DNA of 64,000 nt from Arthrobacter pascens. GTDB lineage: Bacteria > Actinomycetota > Actinomycetes > Actinomycetales > Micrococcaceae. Where the stretch lies: contig NZ_JAUSXF010000001.1 of assembly GCF_030816475.1 (NCBI RefSeq), positions 124,001 through 188,000 on the forward strand, written 5' to 3'. The notes beneath the pieces are model-generated. The model was not told the origin of the DNA. It made no database searches and saw only the letters and a program-made list of their open reading frames with translations. The translations under genes were made by a program, and so were the position numbers. This document shows, piece by piece, positions 43,480 to 53,972 of this stretch (positions are counted from its first letter, which is position 1; each line of letters opens with the position of its first letter).

Positions 43480-43902
43480 TTAGGCCCCCGACGTCCTCGA
43501 CAGGACCCAGGTGTTGGTTCCGTCCTGCCGCTCGAACGTCACAGTGGTCACCAGCGCCTGGATGAGCGCAAGGCCGCGGCCGGACTCCGAGTCATTGTCG
43601 ACGGGAACGGGGTCCATCGGCCCGAACGGCGGTTTGGCGTGGAAGGCGCTGACACGGGCCTGCAGGAGTGCGGGCTGGACGCTGATTTCCACCCCCAGCT
43701 CCACGGGCAGGGTGCCGGCCGGCTGGGCGTGCTGGACGATGTTGGACGCGGCCTCGATAACTGCCGTGGCAAACGTCATCTGGTCCATATCCAGGACGAA
43801 CGGTGCATCCTGCCAGAGGCCGTCCAGCTCGTCATGGACCGCATCGATAGCCTCCGCGGTGGCAAGCCCCCGGAAGCTCCGCCGTGCCAGGACCTCAGTC
43901 AT
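43480..43902 (-). CDS. RsbW-like anti-sigma/serine kinase ATPase
   Basis: A 140-residue HATPase_c_2 domain protein. The N-box reads FATAVIEAASNIVQHA and the glycine box GRGLALIQALVTTVTFERQDGTNTWVLSR, as in SpoIIAB/RsbW kinases. These phosphorylate a STAS antagonist and bind a sigma factor or other partner. Last gene of the operon; it overlaps the STAS gene by 8 nt, so the two form an obvious switching pair. No sigma gene is adjacent, so its target may be elsewhere or may be a non-sigma protein. Confidence 0.9.
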   Translation of the reverse strand: MTEVLARRSFRGLATAEAIDAVHDELDGLWQDAPFVLDMDQMTFATAVIEAASNIVQHAQPAGTLPVELGVEISVQPALLQARVSAFHAKPPFGPMDPVPVDNDSESGRGLALIQALVTTVTFERQDGTNTWVLSRTSGA

Positions 43903-44227
43903 TGCTGAACGCCTCCTCGGCCGAGGCGTAGGACGTCAGCACGCGGTCCATGCTGGTCAGTTCGAGCACCATCTTCACCTGCGGCTGAACGGCCGCGATC
44001 CGAAGGTCGCCCCCGGCCTGCCGCGCTGCTTTGAGGCAGCCGATGAGGGCTCCGAGTCCTGAGGAATCCATGAATGCCGTGTTCTCCAGGTTCACGACTA
44101 TCCTGCTGGAGCCGCCGGCGATGACGTCCGTGACGAACTCACGAAGCTTCGGTGCGGATACCATGTTGAGCCGTCCGTTGGCCTTCACCTCCGCATACGA
44201 GTCCTTGATTTCGTAGCTAAATTCCAC
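43895..44227 (-). CDS. STAS-domain anti-anti-sigma factor
   Basis: A 110-residue single STAS domain. The phosphorylatable serine region is NTAFMDSSGLGALIGCLKAARQAGG (S55/S56). Starts at GTG 44227, with AGAGGA six bases upstream, overlapping the glycosyltransferase end by 11 nt. It should be phosphorylated by the RsbW-like kinase and dephosphorylated by the PP2C protein of the same operon. Confidence 0.9.
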   Translation of the reverse strand: MEFSYEIKDSYAEVKANGRLNMVSAPKLREFVTDVIAGGSSRIVVNLENTAFMDSSGLGALIGCLKAARQAGGDLRIAAVQPQVKMVLELTSMDRVLTSYASAEEAFSND

Positions 44228-46184
44228 CGGATTTCCTCTCTTCGGGCGTTGACTCCACCAGGGGTTCAAACCCCTTGTAGCGAACGGCCCGGACCAGGAC
44301 GCTCATAACCGCCAGGTCAAAAATAACCCACGCCACGTTCACCAGGGTGCCAAGCGGTTCCGCCAGTCCCGTGGCCAGTCGGATCAGGCCGACGACGGCG
44401 GCAACCGCCAGCAGGGCGGCCACCACGATCTGGGGGCGGATCAGGCTCCAGGACGGTCCTCCGCTCTGGCGGGCCTTGGGGGTGACGGCGAACCCCAGCG
44501 GTCGTCCGAACCAGACGTTCCGGGCCGCCGTCGAGCAGGCCTTGATCCAGGTGGGGAAGAGCGCAAGGCTGTACTGCTGGCCGCGCCACGTGCTGATGCC
44601 GCGGCCGGCCACGGCGAACAGCAGCTGGTTCACGATCATGAACGGCACGAAGCGGATGAAGAAGTCTGTGCTGAGGCTGGCCACCGGCAGGATGCCCAGC
44701 AGCAGGTAAATGATGGGGGCGGCGAAATAGATGACCGCGGTGTAGCCGCTCAAGTAAGTCCACATCGTTGCGAAGTACATCAGGCGCTGGCCCAGTTTGA
44801 GGCCGCGCTGGACCAGCGGGTTCTCCCGGAGCATCACCTGGATGGTCCCCTGCGCCCAGCGGAGCCGTTGGGTCAGCATCGTCTTGAGATCCTCCGGGGC
44901 CAGGCCGTAGGCGAGGATCTCATGGTGATAGACGCTTTCCCAGCCCATCGCGTGCATCCGCATCGCGGTGGCCATGTCCTCCGTCACGGAGATAGTCGCC
45001 AGCGGCATGACAGGCTGTGCCTCGTCGTTGCGCTCCACTGACAGCGCGTCCAGGACCGCCTGCACGGATTCCAGGGCGCCCAGCGGGGACCAGTCCCTGG
45101 CGGACATCCGTTTCACTGCATCATCGGCAACCACAGGGACGCCGGCCTCACCCACATGGGCCAGTTCCATGGCTGCGATTTCTTCAAGGTCCGCCTGGAG
45201 TGCCGAAACGTCAGCCATCACCAGCGCCTGCACGGCCTGGTCCACCCGCCGGCGCACGCGGTAGGTGATCTCACTCAACGGACCGCCCTCGTCCAGCTGC
45301 CGCTGGGCTTCGCGGGTGGCCGCCTCGACTTCGTCCAGGACCCGGGCGATCAGGGGCGATTCAACGTCCGATGATTTCCTGGCCTGCCGGATCGCTGACC
45401 GCGATGCGCCGAGGGCCCGGCGGATGCTCTTTTCCGTCTCCTTGACATACCCCACCAGGCCCAGCTGCATCAGGGCCTCCCGGCGCAGGATGGCATTCGA
45501 GCCGCAGAAGAAGGCCGCATTCCAGCCGTCCTTGCCCTGCTGGATAGGCCCGTAGAACAGGGGCGCCTGGCTGCCAAGCGGATCATCGGCCGGGACATTG
45601 TTGAAGTATTGCGGGGTCTGGACCAGTGCCACCCGGCGGTTGTTGAAGTAGCCGATTGTTTTTTCCAGGATGTCCGGCTCGGGGACCTGGTCCGCGTCCA
45701 GGATCAGCAGGAACTCGCCATGGGTGACCATCAGCGCATTGTTCAGGTTGCCTGCCTTGGCATGCCTGGGCATGTCCGTCCAGTCCTCGCCGCGTGTCAC
45801 GTACCCCAGGCCGTGCTGTTCGGCGAGGGCTTTGAGTTCGGGCCGGGCGCCGTCATCCAGGATCCAGGTGCTGTGCGGGTGCCGGATCCGCTGGGCGGCC
45901 AGGGCTGTGTCCATCACCATGTCCAGGGGCTCGTTGTAGGTGGTGATGAACACATCGACCGTGGCGTCACGCGGTGCTTCCGGCGCTCCCTTGCGCAGCT
46001 TCAGGTTCCAGACAGTCATGCCGAACAGCAAGACGTCGATAAGGCTGTAGGTCTCGGCCAGCACCAACGGAACGGAGATCCACCACGCGTCCCAATTCAG
46101 CGAAGCGGTCCAGCGCCAGGCCACATAGTTCAGGCCGAGGATGACGGTCAGCACCACCACCAAGCGGGTCCAGAAGCGGGTCAT
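44217..46184 (-). CDS. BcsA-like processive glycosyltransferase with helical insertion
   Basis: A 655-residue membrane GT2 enzyme. Two N-terminal helices are followed by the catalytic domain with D110-D111, the L-D163-A-D165 metal motif, FFCGSNAILRR, T-E-D (401-403) and the product-binding QRLRW (439-443). Several C-terminal helices follow (about 465-650). This is the cellulose/hyaluronan-synthase pattern of processive polymerases that extrude polysaccharide. Two features are unusual. Residues about 246-398 form a largely helical, charged insertion where BcsA has only some 20 residues. There is also no C-terminal PilZ domain, so cyclic-di-GMP control of the usual kind is absent. It is flanked by a PP2C phosphatase (overlap 4 nt) and a STAS gene. 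Confidence 0.88.
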   Translation of the reverse strand: MTRFWTRLVVVLTVILGLNYVAWRWTASLNWDAWWISVPLVLAETYSLIDVLLFGMTVWNLKLRKGAPEAPRDATVDVFITTYNEPLDMVMDTALAAQRIRHPHSTWILDDGARPELKALAEQHGLGYVTRGEDWTDMPRHAKAGNLNNALMVTHGEFLLILDADQVPEPDILEKTIGYFNNRRVALVQTPQYFNNVPADDPLGSQAPLFYGPIQQGKDGWNAAFFCGSNAILRREALMQLGLVGYVKETEKSIRRALGASRSAIRQARKSSDVESPLIARVLDEVEAATREAQRQLDEGGPLSEITYRVRRRVDQAVQALVMADVSALQADLEEIAAMELAHVGEAGVPVVADDAVKRMSARDWSPLGALESVQAVLDALSVERNDEAQPVMPLATISVTEDMATAMRMHAMGWESVYHHEILAYGLAPEDLKTMLTQRLRWAQGTIQVMLRENPLVQRGLKLGQRLMYFATMWTYLSGYTAVIYFAAPIIYLLLGILPVASLSTDFFIRFVPFMIVNQLLFAVAGRGISTWRGQQYSLALFPTWIKACSTAARNVWFGRPLGFAVTPKARQSGGPSWSLIRPQIVVAALLAVAAVVGLIRLATGLAEPLGTLVNVAWVIFDLAVMSVLVRAVRYKGFEPLVESTPEERKSGGI

Positions 46185-47293
46185 GCCCCGGCTGGTACCG
46201 GCAGCCGACGCATCACCACAGCGGTGACGTCATCCTCCGCTGAATCCGCGGGCGCCAGGGACAGGATGGCGTCGCTGGCGGACTGAGCGGACTGCTGGCC
46301 GTGGGTGGCCACCAGCACGGCCTCGGCGAAGGCCTCCACAGAGTCAAAGACGTCCAGCACGCCGTCGCTGGCGACCACGAGCGCATCGCCCGGCGCCAGG
46401 GTAAGGGTGGACTGCGGCCAGCTGGATCCTGCCCAGGCGCCAACCGGAGGCCCGCCGGAGGGAAGCCGGCGTACCGTTCCCGCGGCCTTCACGTGCAGGG
46501 CAAGTCCGTGACCGGCGTCGACGTAGTTCACGGTGCCGGATGCGGCATCCAGGCGGGCGTGGAAAAGGGTGACGAAGGAGCTGGATGAGTCGAGGTCAGC
46601 GGCGATGGCAGTGCTGGCGGCAGTGAACGCCCCGTCGAGGTCTTCGCGGCGACTGGTTGAGCGCATCACAGCACGCACGGTGGCCGCGATGAGAGCCGCG
46701 CCCATACCCTTGCCCATGGCATCGGCGAAGGTCAGGTGCAGGCCATCCGGGCTCCGGTACCAGTCGTAGAAGTCGCCACCCACATTGCGTGACGGGCGGA
46801 AGGCGCCGGCGAGGTCGTAGCCGTCCACCCGGATGTCTTCGTTGGGGAGCAGGCTTTGCTGCACCTCGGTGGCGCGTTCCAGTTCCTTGGCCGCGCCGGT
46901 GTCCACGGCCGGGACCTGGCGGCGCCGGAAGAGGGCGTTGATCCTGGACTGAAGCTCCCGCGGACTGAAGGGCTTGCTGATGTAGTCATCGGCGCCGTTG
47001 TCCAGTCCCGTGAGTTTGTCCAGCTCATCGGTGCGCGCCGTCAGCATCACAATGAAGGCGTCGGAAAATTCGCGAAGGAGTTTGCAGACCTCCAGGCCGT
47101 CCAGGTCAGGAAGGTTCAGGTCCAGGGTGACCAGGTCCGGCCGGACCCGGCGGACTTCCTCAACCCCTGGCAGGCCCGCCTCCGCCTGCGTGACCTCGAA
47201 ACCCTGCTTGACCAGCACATGCACCAGCAGGCCCCTGATGTCCGGATCGTCCTCTATCACTACAGCTCGACGCGTTTCCGGAATAGACGACAT
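46181..47293 (-). CDS. Response regulator-PP2C (RsbU/SpoIIE-type) phosphatase
   Basis: A 370-residue protein. The receiver domain (1-125) has EDD at 14-16, phospho-acceptor D58 in TLDLNLPD and K in ISKPFSP. A short linker helix is followed by a SpoIIE/PP2C domain (about 140-368) with NVGGDFYDW, FADAMGKGMGAALIAATVRA and VASDGVLDVF supplying metal-binding aspartates. Phosphorylation by an unlinked histidine kinase should activate it to dephosphorylate the STAS protein. First gene of the four-gene operon; its stop overlaps the glycosyltransferase start. Confidence 0.93.
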   Translation of the reverse strand: MSSIPETRRAVVIEDDPDIRGLLVHVLVKQGFEVTQAEAGLPGVEEVRRVRPDLVTLDLNLPDLDGLEVCKLLREFSDAFIVMLTARTDELDKLTGLDNGADDYISKPFSPRELQSRINALFRRRQVPAVDTGAAKELERATEVQQSLLPNEDIRVDGYDLAGAFRPSRNVGGDFYDWYRSPDGLHLTFADAMGKGMGAALIAATVRAVMRSTSRREDLDGAFTAASTAIAADLDSSSSFVTLFHARLDAASGTVNYVDAGHGLALHVKAAGTVRRLPSGGPPVGAWAGSSWPQSTLTLAPGDALVVASDGVLDVFDSVEAFAEAVLVATHGQQSAQSASDAILSLAPADSAEDDVTAVVMRRLPVPAGA

Positions 47294-47536: not shown

Positions 47537-48640
47537 GTGGTTCATAAGGTAAAGGCAGTCATTGCCAAGGAAAAGAACGCTCCGGTTACTGTGGAGACCA
47601 TCCTGGTGCCGGACCCCGGTCCCGGCGAGGCCTTGGTGGACATCCTCACCTGCGGGGTCTGCCACACCGACCTGCACTACAAGCAGGGCGGAATCACTGA
47701 CGACTTCCCCATCCTGCTGGGCCACGAAGCCACCGGCGTGGTCAGCGCCGTTGGCCCCGGCGTCACCGATGTGGAACCAGGGGACAGAGTCATCCTGAAC
47801 TGGCGTGCCGTGTGTGGTCACTGCCGTGCCTGCGCCAAGGGCCAGCCGCAGTACTGCTTCAACACCCACAACGCCACGCAGAAGATGACCCTTGAGGACG
47901 GCACCGAACTCTCGCCCGCCCTCGGCATCGGCGCGTTCGCGGAGAAGACCCTCGTTGCCGCCGGCCAGTGCACCAAGGTGGATGACGACGTCGACCCCGC
48001 CGCCGTCGGACTGCTCGGCTGCGGTGTGATGGCAGGCATCGGGGCCGCAATCAATACCGGCGAGGTTAAGCGCGGCGAGTCCGTCGCCGTCATCGGCTGC
48101 GGCGGTGTGGGCATTGCCGCGATCGCGGGCGCCAAGCTGGCCGGTGCCACCACCATCATCGCCGTAGACATTGACGCCAACAAGGTTGAGCTGGCCAAGT
48201 CTTTGGGCGCCACCCACGGTATCGATTCCTCCACGACGGACCCCGTCGAGGCCATCCGGGCCCTGACCGGAGGCAACGGTGCCGATCTGGTGATAGACGC
48301 CGTCGGCCGTCCTGAAACGTACAAGCAGGCGTTTTACGCCCGCGACCTTGCCGGCCGCGTGGTGCTGGTGGGCGTCCCGACGCCGGACATGAAACTTGAG
48401 CTGCCCCTGCTGGACGTCTTTGGCCGGGGCGGTTCGTTGAAGTCCTCCTGGTACGGGGACTGCCTGCCCTCCCGCGACTTCCCGATGCTGGTCCAGCACT
48501 ACAAACAGGGCAACCTGGACCTGGACGCCTTTGTGACTGAGCGGATCAGCATCGACCAGGTGGAGGAGGCGTTCGCCAAAATGCACGAGGGCAAGGTCCT
48601 CCGCTCCGTGGTTGAACTCCCCTCGGCGGTGCGGCTCTGA
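47537..48640 (+). CDS. mscR: S-(hydroxymethyl)mycothiol dehydrogenase
   Basis: A 367-residue zinc alcohol dehydrogenase of the mycothiol-dependent formaldehyde dehydrogenase type. Catalytic zinc ligands are C42 (CGVCHTD) and H63 (GHE), structural zinc ligands are C93, C96, C99 and C107, and the NAD site is [10 protein letters not shown]. It oxidises the formaldehyde-mycothiol adduct. Starts with GTG 47537. Coupled to the next gene by a 1-nt overlap (TGATG). The shared palindrome links it to betaine demethylation, which releases formaldehyde. Confidence 0.93.
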
Positions 48641-49257
48641 TGGGCGTCACCATCGAGAACCTGGTCACCTCGGGCATCTTCTCGCTCGACGGCGGCACCT
48701 GGGACGTGGACAACAACGTCTGGATCGTGGGCAACAACGACGAATGCGTGATCATCGATTCCCCGCATGACGCCTCCGCAATCATCAGCCAGGTCCGCGG
48801 CCGGCAGGTCAAAGCGATCCTGCTGACCCATGCGCACAACGACCACATCGGGGCGGCCCTCGAAGTCGCCGAGGCGGTGGATGCGCCGATTTTCCTGAAC
48901 GCAGAGGACCTGATGCTCTGGGAACAGATCTATCCCGACGCCAGACCGCACCACTTTCTCGCAGACGGAGACGTATTCCAGGTTGCCGGTGCGGAACTGA
49001 GGGCCATTCACACCCCAGGTCATTCGCCCGGCTCCACCTGCTTCCACCTGGAAAGCGAGGGAACCGTCTTCACCGGAGACACGCTGTTCAACGGGGGTCC
49101 GGGCGCGACGGGCAGGTCCTTCAGCGACTACCCGACCATCCTCGCCTCCATCCGGAACCGGCTGCTGACCCTCCCGGCCGAAACGGTGGTCCGCACCGGT
49201 CACGGCGAGAGCACAACCATCGGGGCGGAGCGGGAGACCCTGTCCCGGGTTCCGTAG
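48640..49257 (+). CDS. MBL-fold hydrolase of the mycothiol formaldehyde pathway
   Basis: A 205-residue metallo-hydrolase with LLTHAHNDHIGAA, IHTPGHSPGST, TGDTLF and a late GHGESTTIG. It is translationally coupled to mscR. That pairing is common in actinobacteria and suggests it cleaves S-formylmycothiol to formate and mycothiol; this function is inferred from context. Confidence 0.88.
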   Translation: MGVTIENLVTSGIFSLDGGTWDVDNNVWIVGNNDECVIIDSPHDASAIISQVRGRQVKAILLTHAHNDHIGAALEVAEAVDAPIFLNAEDLMLWEQIYPDARPHHFLADGDVFQVAGAELRAIHTPGHSPGSTCFHLESEGTVFTGDTLFNGGPGATGRSFSDYPTILASIRNRLLTLPAETVVRTGHGESTTIGAERETLSRVP

Positions 49258-50880: not shown

Positions 50881-52935
50881 TCACGTTGCAGGGACCTTGG
50901 TGGAGGGGGTCTTGGTTGAGGGGATTTTCCGCACCGGAGTGGCTGCGGCTGCCTGGGTCATCCTGTCAAGCAGGATGCCGAGGAAGACGATGGCAAGGCC
51001 TGCGGCGAGGCCCTTGCCGAAGAGCGCGCTTTGGACAAAGCCGGCGACGACGTCGTACCCGAGGCCACCTGCACCTACAAGCGCACCTACTACCACCATG
51101 GCCAGGACATAGATCAAGCCCTGGTTGGCGGCGAGGGCCAGGGATTTCCTGGCCATCGGAAGCTGGACCTTGGTGATCACCTGCCAGGGGGTAGAGCCGC
51201 TGGAGACAGCAGCCTCGACAACTGTCGGGGAGATGGCTGCGATGCCGTCGGCTGTGATCTTGATGGCTACGGGGGCCGCGTAAATGATGCCGGCGATGAT
51301 GGCCGTGAAGCGGGTGGCGCCGAACAGGCCCAGGAACGGGACCAGGTAGACAAAGGCCGGCATGGTCTGGCCGGCATCCAGCATGGGCCGAAGGATCTGG
51401 TCCACCCGTGCGGACCGGCCCATTGCGACGCCGAAGATGACGCCCAGGATCATGACCACCACGGTGGCTACCAGCGTTCCGGCCAGGGTGACCATGGAGT
51501 CGCTCCAGAGGCCAAGGTAGATAATCACACCCAGGCATGCCGTGGTCACAGCAGCGAGCTTCCAGCCGCCCAGTGCGTAGGCCGCGATGGCAATGACCGC
51601 TACGAGGACGTAGAAGGGGGTGTCCGTGAGCAGGGATTGGAACGGGTTGAGGATTCCGGTGGTGACAGCTTCCCTGAAGGACACCGTGAACAGGGACAGG
51701 TTGGTCTGCAGCCAATGGCTGGCGGACCCGACGCCCTGGATGATGACCGGGCCGAGGTTGAGGTCCTTGGGAAAAGCCGCAGCCCACAGCATGCTCCGGG
51801 AGAACTGCACCATGGCCAGTGCCAGTACCAGCGTGACGCCGAGGAGGATGTACCTGGTCCTGGGGGAAATCCTGCGGTTCCGGGCTGCTCCCGGTTCCGC
51901 CCGGCGGCTCGCCGCAGTGGTCACCCGGTCCAGCATGATCGCGAGCAGGACAATGGAGAGGCCGGCGTTCACAGCAGTGCCCACGTCGAGGGATTGCAGC
52001 GCCCGGACCACCACTTGGCCAAGCCCTGGAGCTGCAATCAGCGCTGCGATGGTGACCATGGACAGGGCCGCCATGGTGCTTTGGTTGATGCCCATGACAA
52101 CCGTGCGCCGGGCCATGGGAAGCTGCAGGGTGAGCAACCGCTGCAGGCCCGTTGTACCCAGCGAGTCGGAGGCTTCACGGGTGTTCTCCGGGATAGCCCG
52201 GATGCCGTGCGCGGTCAGCCGGATAACTGGCGGCGCTGCATAGATCACCGTGGCGATGACGGCCGAAGCCGGGCCGATGAGGAAGATCAGGGCCAGCGGA
52301 GCCAGGTAAACGAACGTGGGCAGCGTCTGCATGAAGTCCAGTACCGGCGTGATCACCTTGGCAACCTGGCCATAGACACCGGCCAGGAGACCGAGCGGGA
52401 TCCCGATCAGGAGGGTCAGCAGTACAGCGGTGAGGACCAGGGCGAACGTGAACGTGGCCTCAACGAACAAGCCCTGGAGCCCGAAGAATATGAAGACGCA
52501 AACTGTCAGCAGGGCGACCCGGGCGTTCCCGAACGCGAACGCTATCCAACCAAGCAGTCCTATGGTTCCAAGCCAGCCGATCTCCGGCAGGCGCAGGCCC
52601 GTGGAACTCGCGGCAAACATCGTGATGAAGAGATTGGCCACACCGTCGACTGCTGCCCTCAGGGGCGTGAAGATGTACAGGAACACCGGGTTGTCGGCGC
52701 GGTTGGCAGCCACCCAGGCGTTGAACTGGTTGAGGGAGCGGTGCAGGTCAGTCAGTTCGGAGGCAGGCAAGTTCAGCGTGGATGTCCCGTGCAGGACCGC
52801 AAATCCCAGGATCCAGATGATGGCAGCCCCGGCCAGCAGCACGGTGCGCCGGCTGGGCCGGCGGCGTGGTTCTTTGAGAGCGGGGGGTGCCGGCTGCGTC
52901 GTGGCCCGGTCACGGTCCCGGACGAGCGTAGACAT
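50881..52935 (-). CDS. Fused two-domain QAT-family ABC permease
   Basis: A 684-residue permease that contains two complete ProW/OpuAB-like domains in tandem. The first has ASDSLGTTGLQRLLTLQLPMARRTVVMGINQ (EAA loop); the second has VEAAVSSGSTPWQVITKVQLPMARKSLALAANQ. Each domain brings its own set of helices, so one chain can supply both membrane halves of the transporter. It should import glycine betaine, choline or related compounds. The start ATG 52935 overlaps the ATPase stop (ATGA). Confidence 0.9.
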   Translation of the reverse strand: MSTLVRDRDRATTQPAPPALKEPRRRPSRRTVLLAGAAIIWILGFAVLHGTSTLNLPASELTDLHRSLNQFNAWVAANRADNPVFLYIFTPLRAAVDGVANLFITMFAASSTGLRLPEIGWLGTIGLLGWIAFAFGNARVALLTVCVFIFFGLQGLFVEATFTFALVLTAVLLTLLIGIPLGLLAGVYGQVAKVITPVLDFMQTLPTFVYLAPLALIFLIGPASAVIATVIYAAPPVIRLTAHGIRAIPENTREASDSLGTTGLQRLLTLQLPMARRTVVMGINQSTMAALSMVTIAALIAAPGLGQVVVRALQSLDVGTAVNAGLSIVLLAIMLDRVTTAASRRAEPGAARNRRISPRTRYILLGVTLVLALAMVQFSRSMLWAAAFPKDLNLGPVIIQGVGSASHWLQTNLSLFTVSFREAVTTGILNPFQSLLTDTPFYVLVAVIAIAAYALGGWKLAAVTTACLGVIIYLGLWSDSMVTLAGTLVATVVVMILGVIFGVAMGRSARVDQILRPMLDAGQTMPAFVYLVPFLGLFGATRFTAIIAGIIYAAPVAIKITADGIAAISPTVVEAAVSSGSTPWQVITKVQLPMARKSLALAANQGLIYVLAMVVVGALVGAGGLGYDVVAGFVQSALFGKGLAAGLAIVFLGILLDRMTQAAAATPVRKIPSTKTPSTKVPAT

Positions 52936-53972
52936 CAGGCCGCTGCTTCCGCTGGCTGCAGCACCGACAGGATGCTGTCGCGGTCGATCTGCCCGGTGAT
53001 CCTGCCTTCCGCATCCTCCACGAGGACGGGGCAGGAGGAGTGCATGACGGCAGCGATGGCGTCCCTGATGATCGTCCCGGAACTGAGGACGGGGGCGTCC
53101 AAGGGAGTTCCGGCCGCCACGGGACGGGTGATCCACTTCAAGGTCAGGACGTCCGCGCGGGGAACCTCGGACACAAAATCCTGGATGTATTTGTCTGCAG
53201 GGGATCCCACCAGCTCGTCCCCTGTGCCGCACTGGACCATCTCGCCGTTGCGCATGATCAGGATGCGGTCGCCAAGCTTGAGCGCCTCGGAGAGGTCATG
53301 GGTGACGAACACCATGGTTTTGCCCATTTCCTTGTGCAGCCGGATGACCTCCGCCTGCATGTCGCGGCGGATGAGGGGATCCAGCGCTGAGAAAGGTTCG
53401 TCGAAGAGGATGGTGTCCGGATCGCCGGCCAAGGCACGGCCCAGGCCAACGCGCTGCTGCATGCCGCCGGAGAGCTGGTCCGGGTAATGCTGTTCATAGC
53501 CTTTCAGCCCAACCAGCTCGATGATCTCCCTGGCCCGGCCGTAGCGTTCCTTCTTGGCCGCGCCGCGGATCTGCAGCCCGTAGGAGACGTTGTCCAGCAC
53601 TGTCCGGTGCGGGAGGAGTCCGAAGTGCTGGAACACCATGGACATCTTCCGCCGTCGCAGTTCCCGCAGTTCCCCGATACCTGCCTGCAGGACATCTTTG
53701 CCGTCTACGAGCACTTGGCCCGAAGTAGGTTCGATCAGCCGGGTGAGGCAGCGGATCAGGGTTGATTTTCCGGATCCGGAAAGTCCCATGACCACGAAGA
53801 CCTCGCCCTTTGCGACGTCGAAACTCAGGTTCCGGACGGCGGCCACGCAGCCGGTGCCTTCCAGCAGTTCAGCAGAACCGAGGGACGAAAGCTCAGGATT
53901 CTCCGGGATCTTTTCGCCCCCCGGTCCAAACACCTTCCAGAGGTTTCGTACTGAGATATCGGGGCTGTTCAT
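52935..53972 (-). CDS. Glycine betaine ABC transporter ATP-binding protein
   Basis: A 345-residue ProV/OpuAA-type ATPase. Walker [11 protein letters not shown]-loop [13 protein letters not shown], signature [15 protein letters not shown], Walker [13 protein letters not shown] and switch His FVTHDLSEA are present. A C-terminal CBS-like region follows ([33 protein letters not shown]). AGGAG lies seven bases before ATG 53972, which overlaps the betB stop. Confidence 0.93.

Follow-up and report, generated by a model that had tools for sequence, protein, structure and literature searches.

The operon and its products

The window analysed here is a 64,000-nucleotide stretch of the genome of Arthrobacter pascens (assembly GCF_030816475.1, contig NZ_JAUSXF010000001.1, positions 124,001 to 188,000 of the forward strand). 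Within positions 43480–47293 of the window, on the minus strand, lie four overlapping genes encoding, in this order, a PP2C phosphatase, a glycosyltransferase (GT), a STAS protein and an RsbW-like ATPase (Table 1). The original prediction, made from the sequence alone, had named these four families and described a complete set of PP2C, STAS and RsbW-like proteins around a polysaccharide synthase; Pfam searches found every family at this span, and the domains were confirmed by Pfam, by alignment of the STAS protein with SpoIIAA and by a profile match of the ATPase to RsbW. Below, GT refers to the glycosyltransferase of the operon, G000 is the source genome, and the genomes of relatives and the loci carry labels beginning with G and L, respectively.

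The STAS gene most likely starts at the GTG at 44227 rather than at the TTG at 44269, because AGAGGAAA lies just 5' of the GTG and homologues have a Met there. With this start, the overlaps are 4 bases (PP2C/GT), 11 bases (GT/STAS) and 8 bases (STAS/ATPase), which suggests translational coupling.

Table 1. Features of the operon, in window coordinates.
Feature	Position	Strand	Evidence
Response-regulator receiver and SpoIIE-type PP2C serine phosphatase, 370 amino acids	46181..47293	-	Pfam Response_reg 2.4e-26, SpoIIE/PP2C 1.4e-33
Receiver domain	~46940-47263	-	Pfam Response_reg, residues 11-118
PP2C domain	~46205-46750	-	Pfam SpoIIE, residues 182-363
BcsA-fold GT2 polysaccharide synthase, 655 amino acids	44217..46184	-	Pfam GT2/cellulose synthase families; motifs DDG, DAD, TED, QRLRW
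GT family-specific insert, residues ~243-396, mainly helical (predicted)	44997..45458	-	Alignments and structure model
STAS protein, SpoIIAA/RsbV-like, 110 amino acids from inferred GTG 44227	43895..44227	-	Pfam STAS 2.8e-18 (frame 43895-44269)
Codon of predicted phospho-acceptor Ser55, STAS motif MDSSG	44063..44065	-	DSSG aligned to SpoIIAA DSSG
RsbW/SpoIIAB-like GHKL ATPase, putative STAS kinase, 140 amino acids	43480..43902	-	Pfam HATPase_c_2 2.2e-10

Distribution of the four-gene set

Matches to the GT in relatives were thinned before counting by dropping any whose last 200 residues repeat those of another, which left 150 non-identical GT hits; these include partial and split GTs, and the rows are not phylogenetically independent. 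STAS and ATPase genes are both linked to the GT in 105 of the hits, whereas 11 have the ATPase without STAS, 12 have STAS without the ATPase and 22 have neither. A PP2C gene lies within 2.6 kb on the same strand in 94 of the 105, and 85 distinct PP2C proteins are encoded directly upstream of such GTs. These 94 hits, in which the four families co-occur, together with the 85 upstream PP2C proteins, exclude a chance arrangement. The wide recurrence of the operon in relatives likewise rules out a local oddity or an artefact.

Among 59 relatives searched, all four genes were found in 23 genomes of the window's genus (its own included) and in G053. The GT is split over frames in G026 (L026) and G030 (L022), with the partner genes still present, and at L022 the ATPase is split too; the PP2C gene is split over frames in G017. 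Wider samples gave GT matches with E ≤ 1e-60 in 21 of 347 genomes at the level of the order, in 24 of 394 at that of the class and in four of 396 at that of the phylum; these samples overlap, G000 is in each and a few matches are short and N-terminal. The operon-bearing lineages are nearly all Actinomycetota. The best 80 of 582 relatives from a scan of genome contigs are mostly of this phylum (e.g. Arthrobacter, Cellulomonas, Nocardioides, Mycolicibacterium, Gordonia and Curtobacterium) and also include records labelled Roseiflexus, Pseudomonadota and Spirochaetes, although metagenome bins may be mislabelled. In a second homologue search, the matches listed (120 of 3672) include spirochaete, chloroflexot and Anaeromyxobacter-named relatives, and none of those listed is a GT carrying its own STAS domain. 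The nearest named GT proteins are from Arthrobacter/Pseudarthrobacter.

The switch proteins

The best solved relative of the STAS protein is SpoIIAA (PDB entry 1th8_B; 3.7e-15), with DSSG aligned to DSSG; we take the serine of this motif in SpoIIAA to be the residue that is phosphorylated there. The window protein has DSSG, and the serine is kept in all 105 ATPase-linked STAS proteins. Of the 12 loci that have STAS without the ATPase by position, L236 (which has a PP2C–ATPase fusion upstream) and L235 (at a contig edge) were set aside. The serine is absent from nine of the remaining ten STAS proteins (GASG in five, SPSG in two, DAMG in one and DWSG in one). Since STAS persists beside the GT at these loci without the serine, it seems to have a phosphorylation-independent job there.

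The ATPase scores 20.4 bits against the NCBIfam RsbW model (NF003144), below the cut-off of 145, while its family profile matches RsbW (PDB entry 6m36_A) at 8.9e-14 and also finds SpoIIAB. The G1 Asp contacts adenine in GHKL proteins. By sequence alignment, the G1-box Asp appears to be replaced by Ala in the window ATPase and its near relatives, with the N-box Glu/Asn/His and the GRGL of G2 kept, so that the predicted Bergerat ATP site (N, G1 and G2) would be incomplete. The G1 residue in 116 ATPases of the family is Asp in 79, Ala in 26, Glu in eight and His in three, and the STAS serine is retained wherever STAS is linked, the G1 change notwithstanding. Either the kinase works without this Asp or the protein may have become mainly a binder. 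Neither the loss of the G1 Asp nor the GT insert described below figured in the original prediction.

The sensor parts of the 85 upstream PP2C proteins alternate between GAF (51), receiver (26), MASE1 (three) and PAS (one), so that the sensor varies while the output set stays. The PAS-bearing protein is presumably the fused spirochaete protein of L236 (3767–5977), in which PP2C and HATPase, and probably PAS, are joined just upstream of the GT and STAS genes, recalling the dual-function SypE. At the Roseiflexus-labelled L221 (98–3381), inspection by eye placed a histidine-kinase-like gene directly before the receiver-PP2C gene; it is a candidate input to the switch.

The glycosyltransferase and its insert

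The GT shows the BcsA fold with the D,D,D,QxxRW motifs. It scores 354.8 bits against the NCBIfam CelA/BcsA model TIGR03030, below the cut-off of 699.1, and thus 'BcsA-like' is a fair description whereas 'cellulose synthase' is not established. As predicted, the GT has no Pfam match to PilZ, and in the structure model the protein ends after a helix (610–635) and a low-confidence tail. The further claim, that the lack of PilZ means that control by cyclic di-GMP (c-di-GMP) has been replaced, was dropped: G000 has five GGDEF matches, and BgsA of S. meliloti, which has no PilZ, is described as binding c-di-GMP through a C-terminal peptide (PMC10374906).

The insert is of about 150 residues, with model helices at 235–269, 277–298, 303–322, 330–338, 354–362 and 367–381. 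It is 94–170 residues long in every STAS-linked GT that could be measured by a sequence pattern (L224, L225 and split or partial GTs were left out, and for L131 the pattern returned an erroneous value). The insert is missing from eight related GTs that have no STAS (L037–L040 and L140–L143), the profile pieces abutting; three of this kind were aligned. A profile of 32 insert sequences gave no lead among PDB sequences (best E of 0.13). The source genome has a second insert-bearing GT (L031 5823–7742; G000:C1:3962828), 62% identical and with no STAS, ATPase or PP2C gene beside it, which might be served in trans.

Proposed mechanism and alternatives

We propose a partner switch with an enzyme as its output. 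A histidine kinase would phosphorylate the receiver of the PP2C protein, and the active PP2C would dephosphorylate the STAS protein at Ser55, as the motif and family suggest. The unphosphorylated STAS protein would dock on the cytoplasmic face of the synthase, the most likely site being the helical insert by the active site or a position next to that insert, and this binding would turn polymer synthesis on; the RsbW-like ATPase would bind and phosphorylate the STAS protein, switching it off. Control of polymer synthesis is the likely purpose of the switch. That the STAS protein directly controls the synthase, with the ATPase as its kinase, we consider a shade better than an even bet. In its favour are the recurrent linkage of STAS and ATPase genes to the GT, with correlated distances, the rarity of a linked sigma gene and the operon genomes without a SigB/F/G match, the STAS genes retained beside the GT where neither ATPase nor PP2C is linked, the insert of the STAS-linked GTs, an output set that stays constant behind varying sensors, the unlinked STAS genes of Curtobacterium, and the precedents of SiaC–SiaD and all4160. 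The broader proposal, that a widespread and previously undescribed class of BcsA-fold synthases in many Actinomycetota is gated allosterically by serine phosphorylation rather than in the PilZ manner, with STAS docking on a dedicated helical insert and with phosphatase and kinase encoded in the same operon, is more tentative and in our judgement falls somewhat short of even.

Several observations weigh against direct control by STAS. With its G1 Asp lost, the window ATPase may not be an active kinase, and the STAS protein of L198 keeps DSSG without a linked ATPase. When mapped on a tree of the GTs from 90 thinned rows (with L236, which is not among the 105, assigned by hand as kinase-linked, and L235 out of the serine count), the kinase state changes three times and the serine twice, and a sign test gives p = 0.5. 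At least four genomes with a kinase-less GT–STAS pair (G008, G023, G034 and G120) hold a full operon elsewhere, so that a kinase is available to those pairs in trans. Insert-bearing GT paralogues without an adjoining STAS gene exist (L031 in G000, L032, L117, L168, L183, L192 and L201), and the insert therefore does not require a linked STAS. Partial correlations of evolutionary distance over 79 thinned loci (0.356 for insert with STAS given the core; 0.385 for core with STAS given the insert) do not single out the insert. Eleven loci (ten from Curtobacterium and one from another member of the Microbacteriaceae) keep the ATPase beside the GT but not STAS. Finally, 20 of 24 four-gene genomes have a SigB/F/G-like sigma factor of more than 200 bits, and G000 itself has one (C1:3911446; 221 bits, below the cut-off of 234).

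The raw counts had pointed to a strong link between kinase and serine, but on the tree it comes down to these few changes, which are not significant. There are three independent pairs on the tree, of which two agree with the association and none opposes it; with only two or three events behind it, the association is suggestive. The distances of the GT core, STAS and the ATPase are correlated (raw r of about 0.7 over the same 79 loci), and the test separated neither the insert from the core nor STAS from the ATPase.

The chief rival has the ATPase, not STAS, docking on the synthase and holding it inactive until unphosphorylated STAS pulls the ATPase off. This would directly mirror the canonical switch, where RsbW holds a sigma factor, and an ATPase that has lost the G1 Asp, as in the window lineage, could be better suited to binding than to acting as a kinase. 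The 11 loci with the ATPase and without STAS also fit it, although, being ten Curtobacterium loci and a single Microbacteriaceae record, they probably represent one event. An unlinked DSSG STAS gene adjoining an ATPase gene was found in seven of seven Curtobacterium genomes examined whose GT operon has no STAS. As STAS is encoded in trans, its loss from these operons was dropped as a fatal objection to STAS as the effector. Docking by the ATPase also sits poorly with the ten loci that retain STAS without a linked ATPase, and we regard it as unlikely. In the seven Curtobacterium genomes (L237–L243) the GT operon keeps another ATPase besides that of the unlinked pair, and within 7.5–9 kb around the pair no match to a sigma or PP2C profile was seen.

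The original prediction had noted that no sigma gene is adjacent and had offered two routes to polymer synthesis, an unlinked sigma factor or direct action on the synthase. No sigma gene lies inside or adjoining the window operon. Among 90 loci in which the GT has 4 kb or more of sequence to either side, a sigma gene occurs within 2.5 kb of the GT once, and that one is SigA-type; homologous operons thus do not always carry a sigma gene, and 89 of the 90 loci speak against an ordinary switch, with the ATPase as anti-sigma factor to an unlinked sigma factor of the SigB/F type and the GT merely co-transcribed or a member of the regulon. SigB/F/G factors were sought with TIGR02980 in the 59 relatives and in 37 operon genomes, using a line of 150 bits, which was our choice and lies above the SigA group at ∼130 bits (the curated cut-off is 234). 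The 37 leave out genomes whose only loci are partial, lack the kinase or lie at a contig edge (G091, G266, G308, G463, G483, G690, G995 and G1064) and take in G013 and G014, which were included because the 59-relative search had already shown them to be without the sigma factor. No match of at least 150 bits was found in ten of the 35 operon genomes not chosen for this (12 of 37 with G013 and G014, the others being G218, G123, G327, G347, G255, G337, G260, G132, G231 and G567). Among these ten, the PP2C gene does not immediately precede the GT in G347 and G255 and is not in the stretch examined for G567.

In the 59-relative search, four of the 24 four-gene genomes have no SigB/F/G factor (G013, G014, G030 and G032), while seven of 12 genomes of the genus in which the operon is missing have one anyway. 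Because the sigma factor is missing from part of the operon genomes and present in some operon-less ones, module and sigma factor are not tied, though G000 taken alone leaves the sigma route standing. What favours an ordinary switch, besides the 20 of 24 genomes, is that the SigB/F/G-like gene of G000 has no RsbW-like neighbour seen by eye within 5 kb (L046), and that the operon ATPase is the sole stand-alone RsbW-like protein recognized, by frame length and by eye, among 14 HATPase_c_2 matches. STAS nevertheless persists beside the GT without a linked kinase or phosphatase. Of the two routes, the unlinked sigma factor is thus weakened by the ten of 35 genomes and direct action on the synthase is favoured; we hold the ordinary switch to be the least probable of the alternatives weighed here, and less likely than the ATPase as effector.

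A switch acting through a third, unlinked component, such as the metabolism of c-di-GMP or an additional export protein, without contact between the GT and STAS, is improbable in our view, ranking between the two alternatives above. The five GGDEF matches in the genome would allow it, and the direct output of SiaABCD is a diguanylate cyclase. The window operon, however, has no gene for a diguanylate cyclase or a further export protein (the GGDEF search did not cover other loci), and the only recurrent neighbour scored, a GH26-like hydrolase found with a profile seeded with a Pfam GH26-matching protein, occurs no more than 4 kb from the GT in just 37 of the 90 loci; no such gene was noticed next to the operon of the window.

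Neighbouring genes

Genes for OHCU decarboxylase and HIU hydrolase lie on one side of the operon and that for a mycothiol-dependent formaldehyde dehydrogenase on the other. Positions 47537–49257 hold a divergent pair encoding S-(hydroxymethyl)mycothiol dehydrogenase, which at 671.8 bits exceeds the cut-off, and a metallo-beta-lactamase-fold protein. A 783-residue open reading frame at 50881–53232 has two glycine-betaine/choline-type ABC permease units in a single frame (358.1 bits; model cut-off 363). A scan for promoters and terminators returned one promoter-like site (0.6 expected), on the other strand, and five terminator-like sites (2.3 expected, standard deviation 1.8); none were used.

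Comparison with known systems

The operon shares a SpoIIE-type PP2C, a DSSG STAS protein and a GHKL ATPase related to RsbW/SpoIIAB with the SigB and SigF switches (RsbU–RsbV–RsbW and SpoIIE–SpoIIAA–SpoIIAB). Unlike these, it has no sigma gene and has a synthase inside, and the window ATPase does not have the G1 Asp. The GT differs from the BcsA cellulose synthase in having no PilZ domain, no BcsB in the operon, an extra helical insert and a CelA score below the cut-off.

No title or abstract found in the open-licence PMC literature describes this operon, and the main text of a paper on Actinoplanes GT2/GH26 gene clusters has no STAS or PP2C (PMC13390465). The four systems that follow are likened by description, their sequences not having been compared. 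In SiaABCD of Pseudomonas, a phosphatase and a kinase work with a switch protein that acts directly on an enzyme; unphosphorylated SiaC is described as binding to the stalk of SiaD (PMC8457831), which is a diguanylate cyclase, whereas the output here would be a polymer synthase. Anabaena all4160 is described as a glycosyltransferase that bears a STAS domain at its N terminus (PMC8256260), fused there and separate here. SiaC–SiaD and all4160 are precedents for a switch of the kind proposed. The Nostoc HmpU–HmpV–HmpW set of phosphatase, STAS protein and kinase is tied to polysaccharide and motility, with its output given as unknown and no synthase named in the account available (PMC8256260).

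In Vibrio fischeri, SypA and SypE form a STAS phospho-switch governing exopolysaccharide, and the target of SypA is still termed unknown in the accounts cited (PMC8256260, PMC11112999, PMC4517449). Syp is an 18-gene locus with a single dual kinase/phosphatase, SypE; here, in contrast, the STAS gene directly adjoins that of a single BcsA-fold synthase, and phosphatase and kinase are distinct proteins, a fusion of the two occurring solely at the spirochaete locus L236. Papers from 2021 and 2024 describe the biofilm-polysaccharide STAS proteins SypA and HmpV as having no known target (PMC8256260, PMC11112999); in the present operon of soil bacteria, the switch genes of many genera immediately adjoin a candidate STAS target in the form of a BcsA-fold synthase. 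If the proposal is true, switching by serine phosphorylation would join c-di-GMP as a means of gating polymer synthases.

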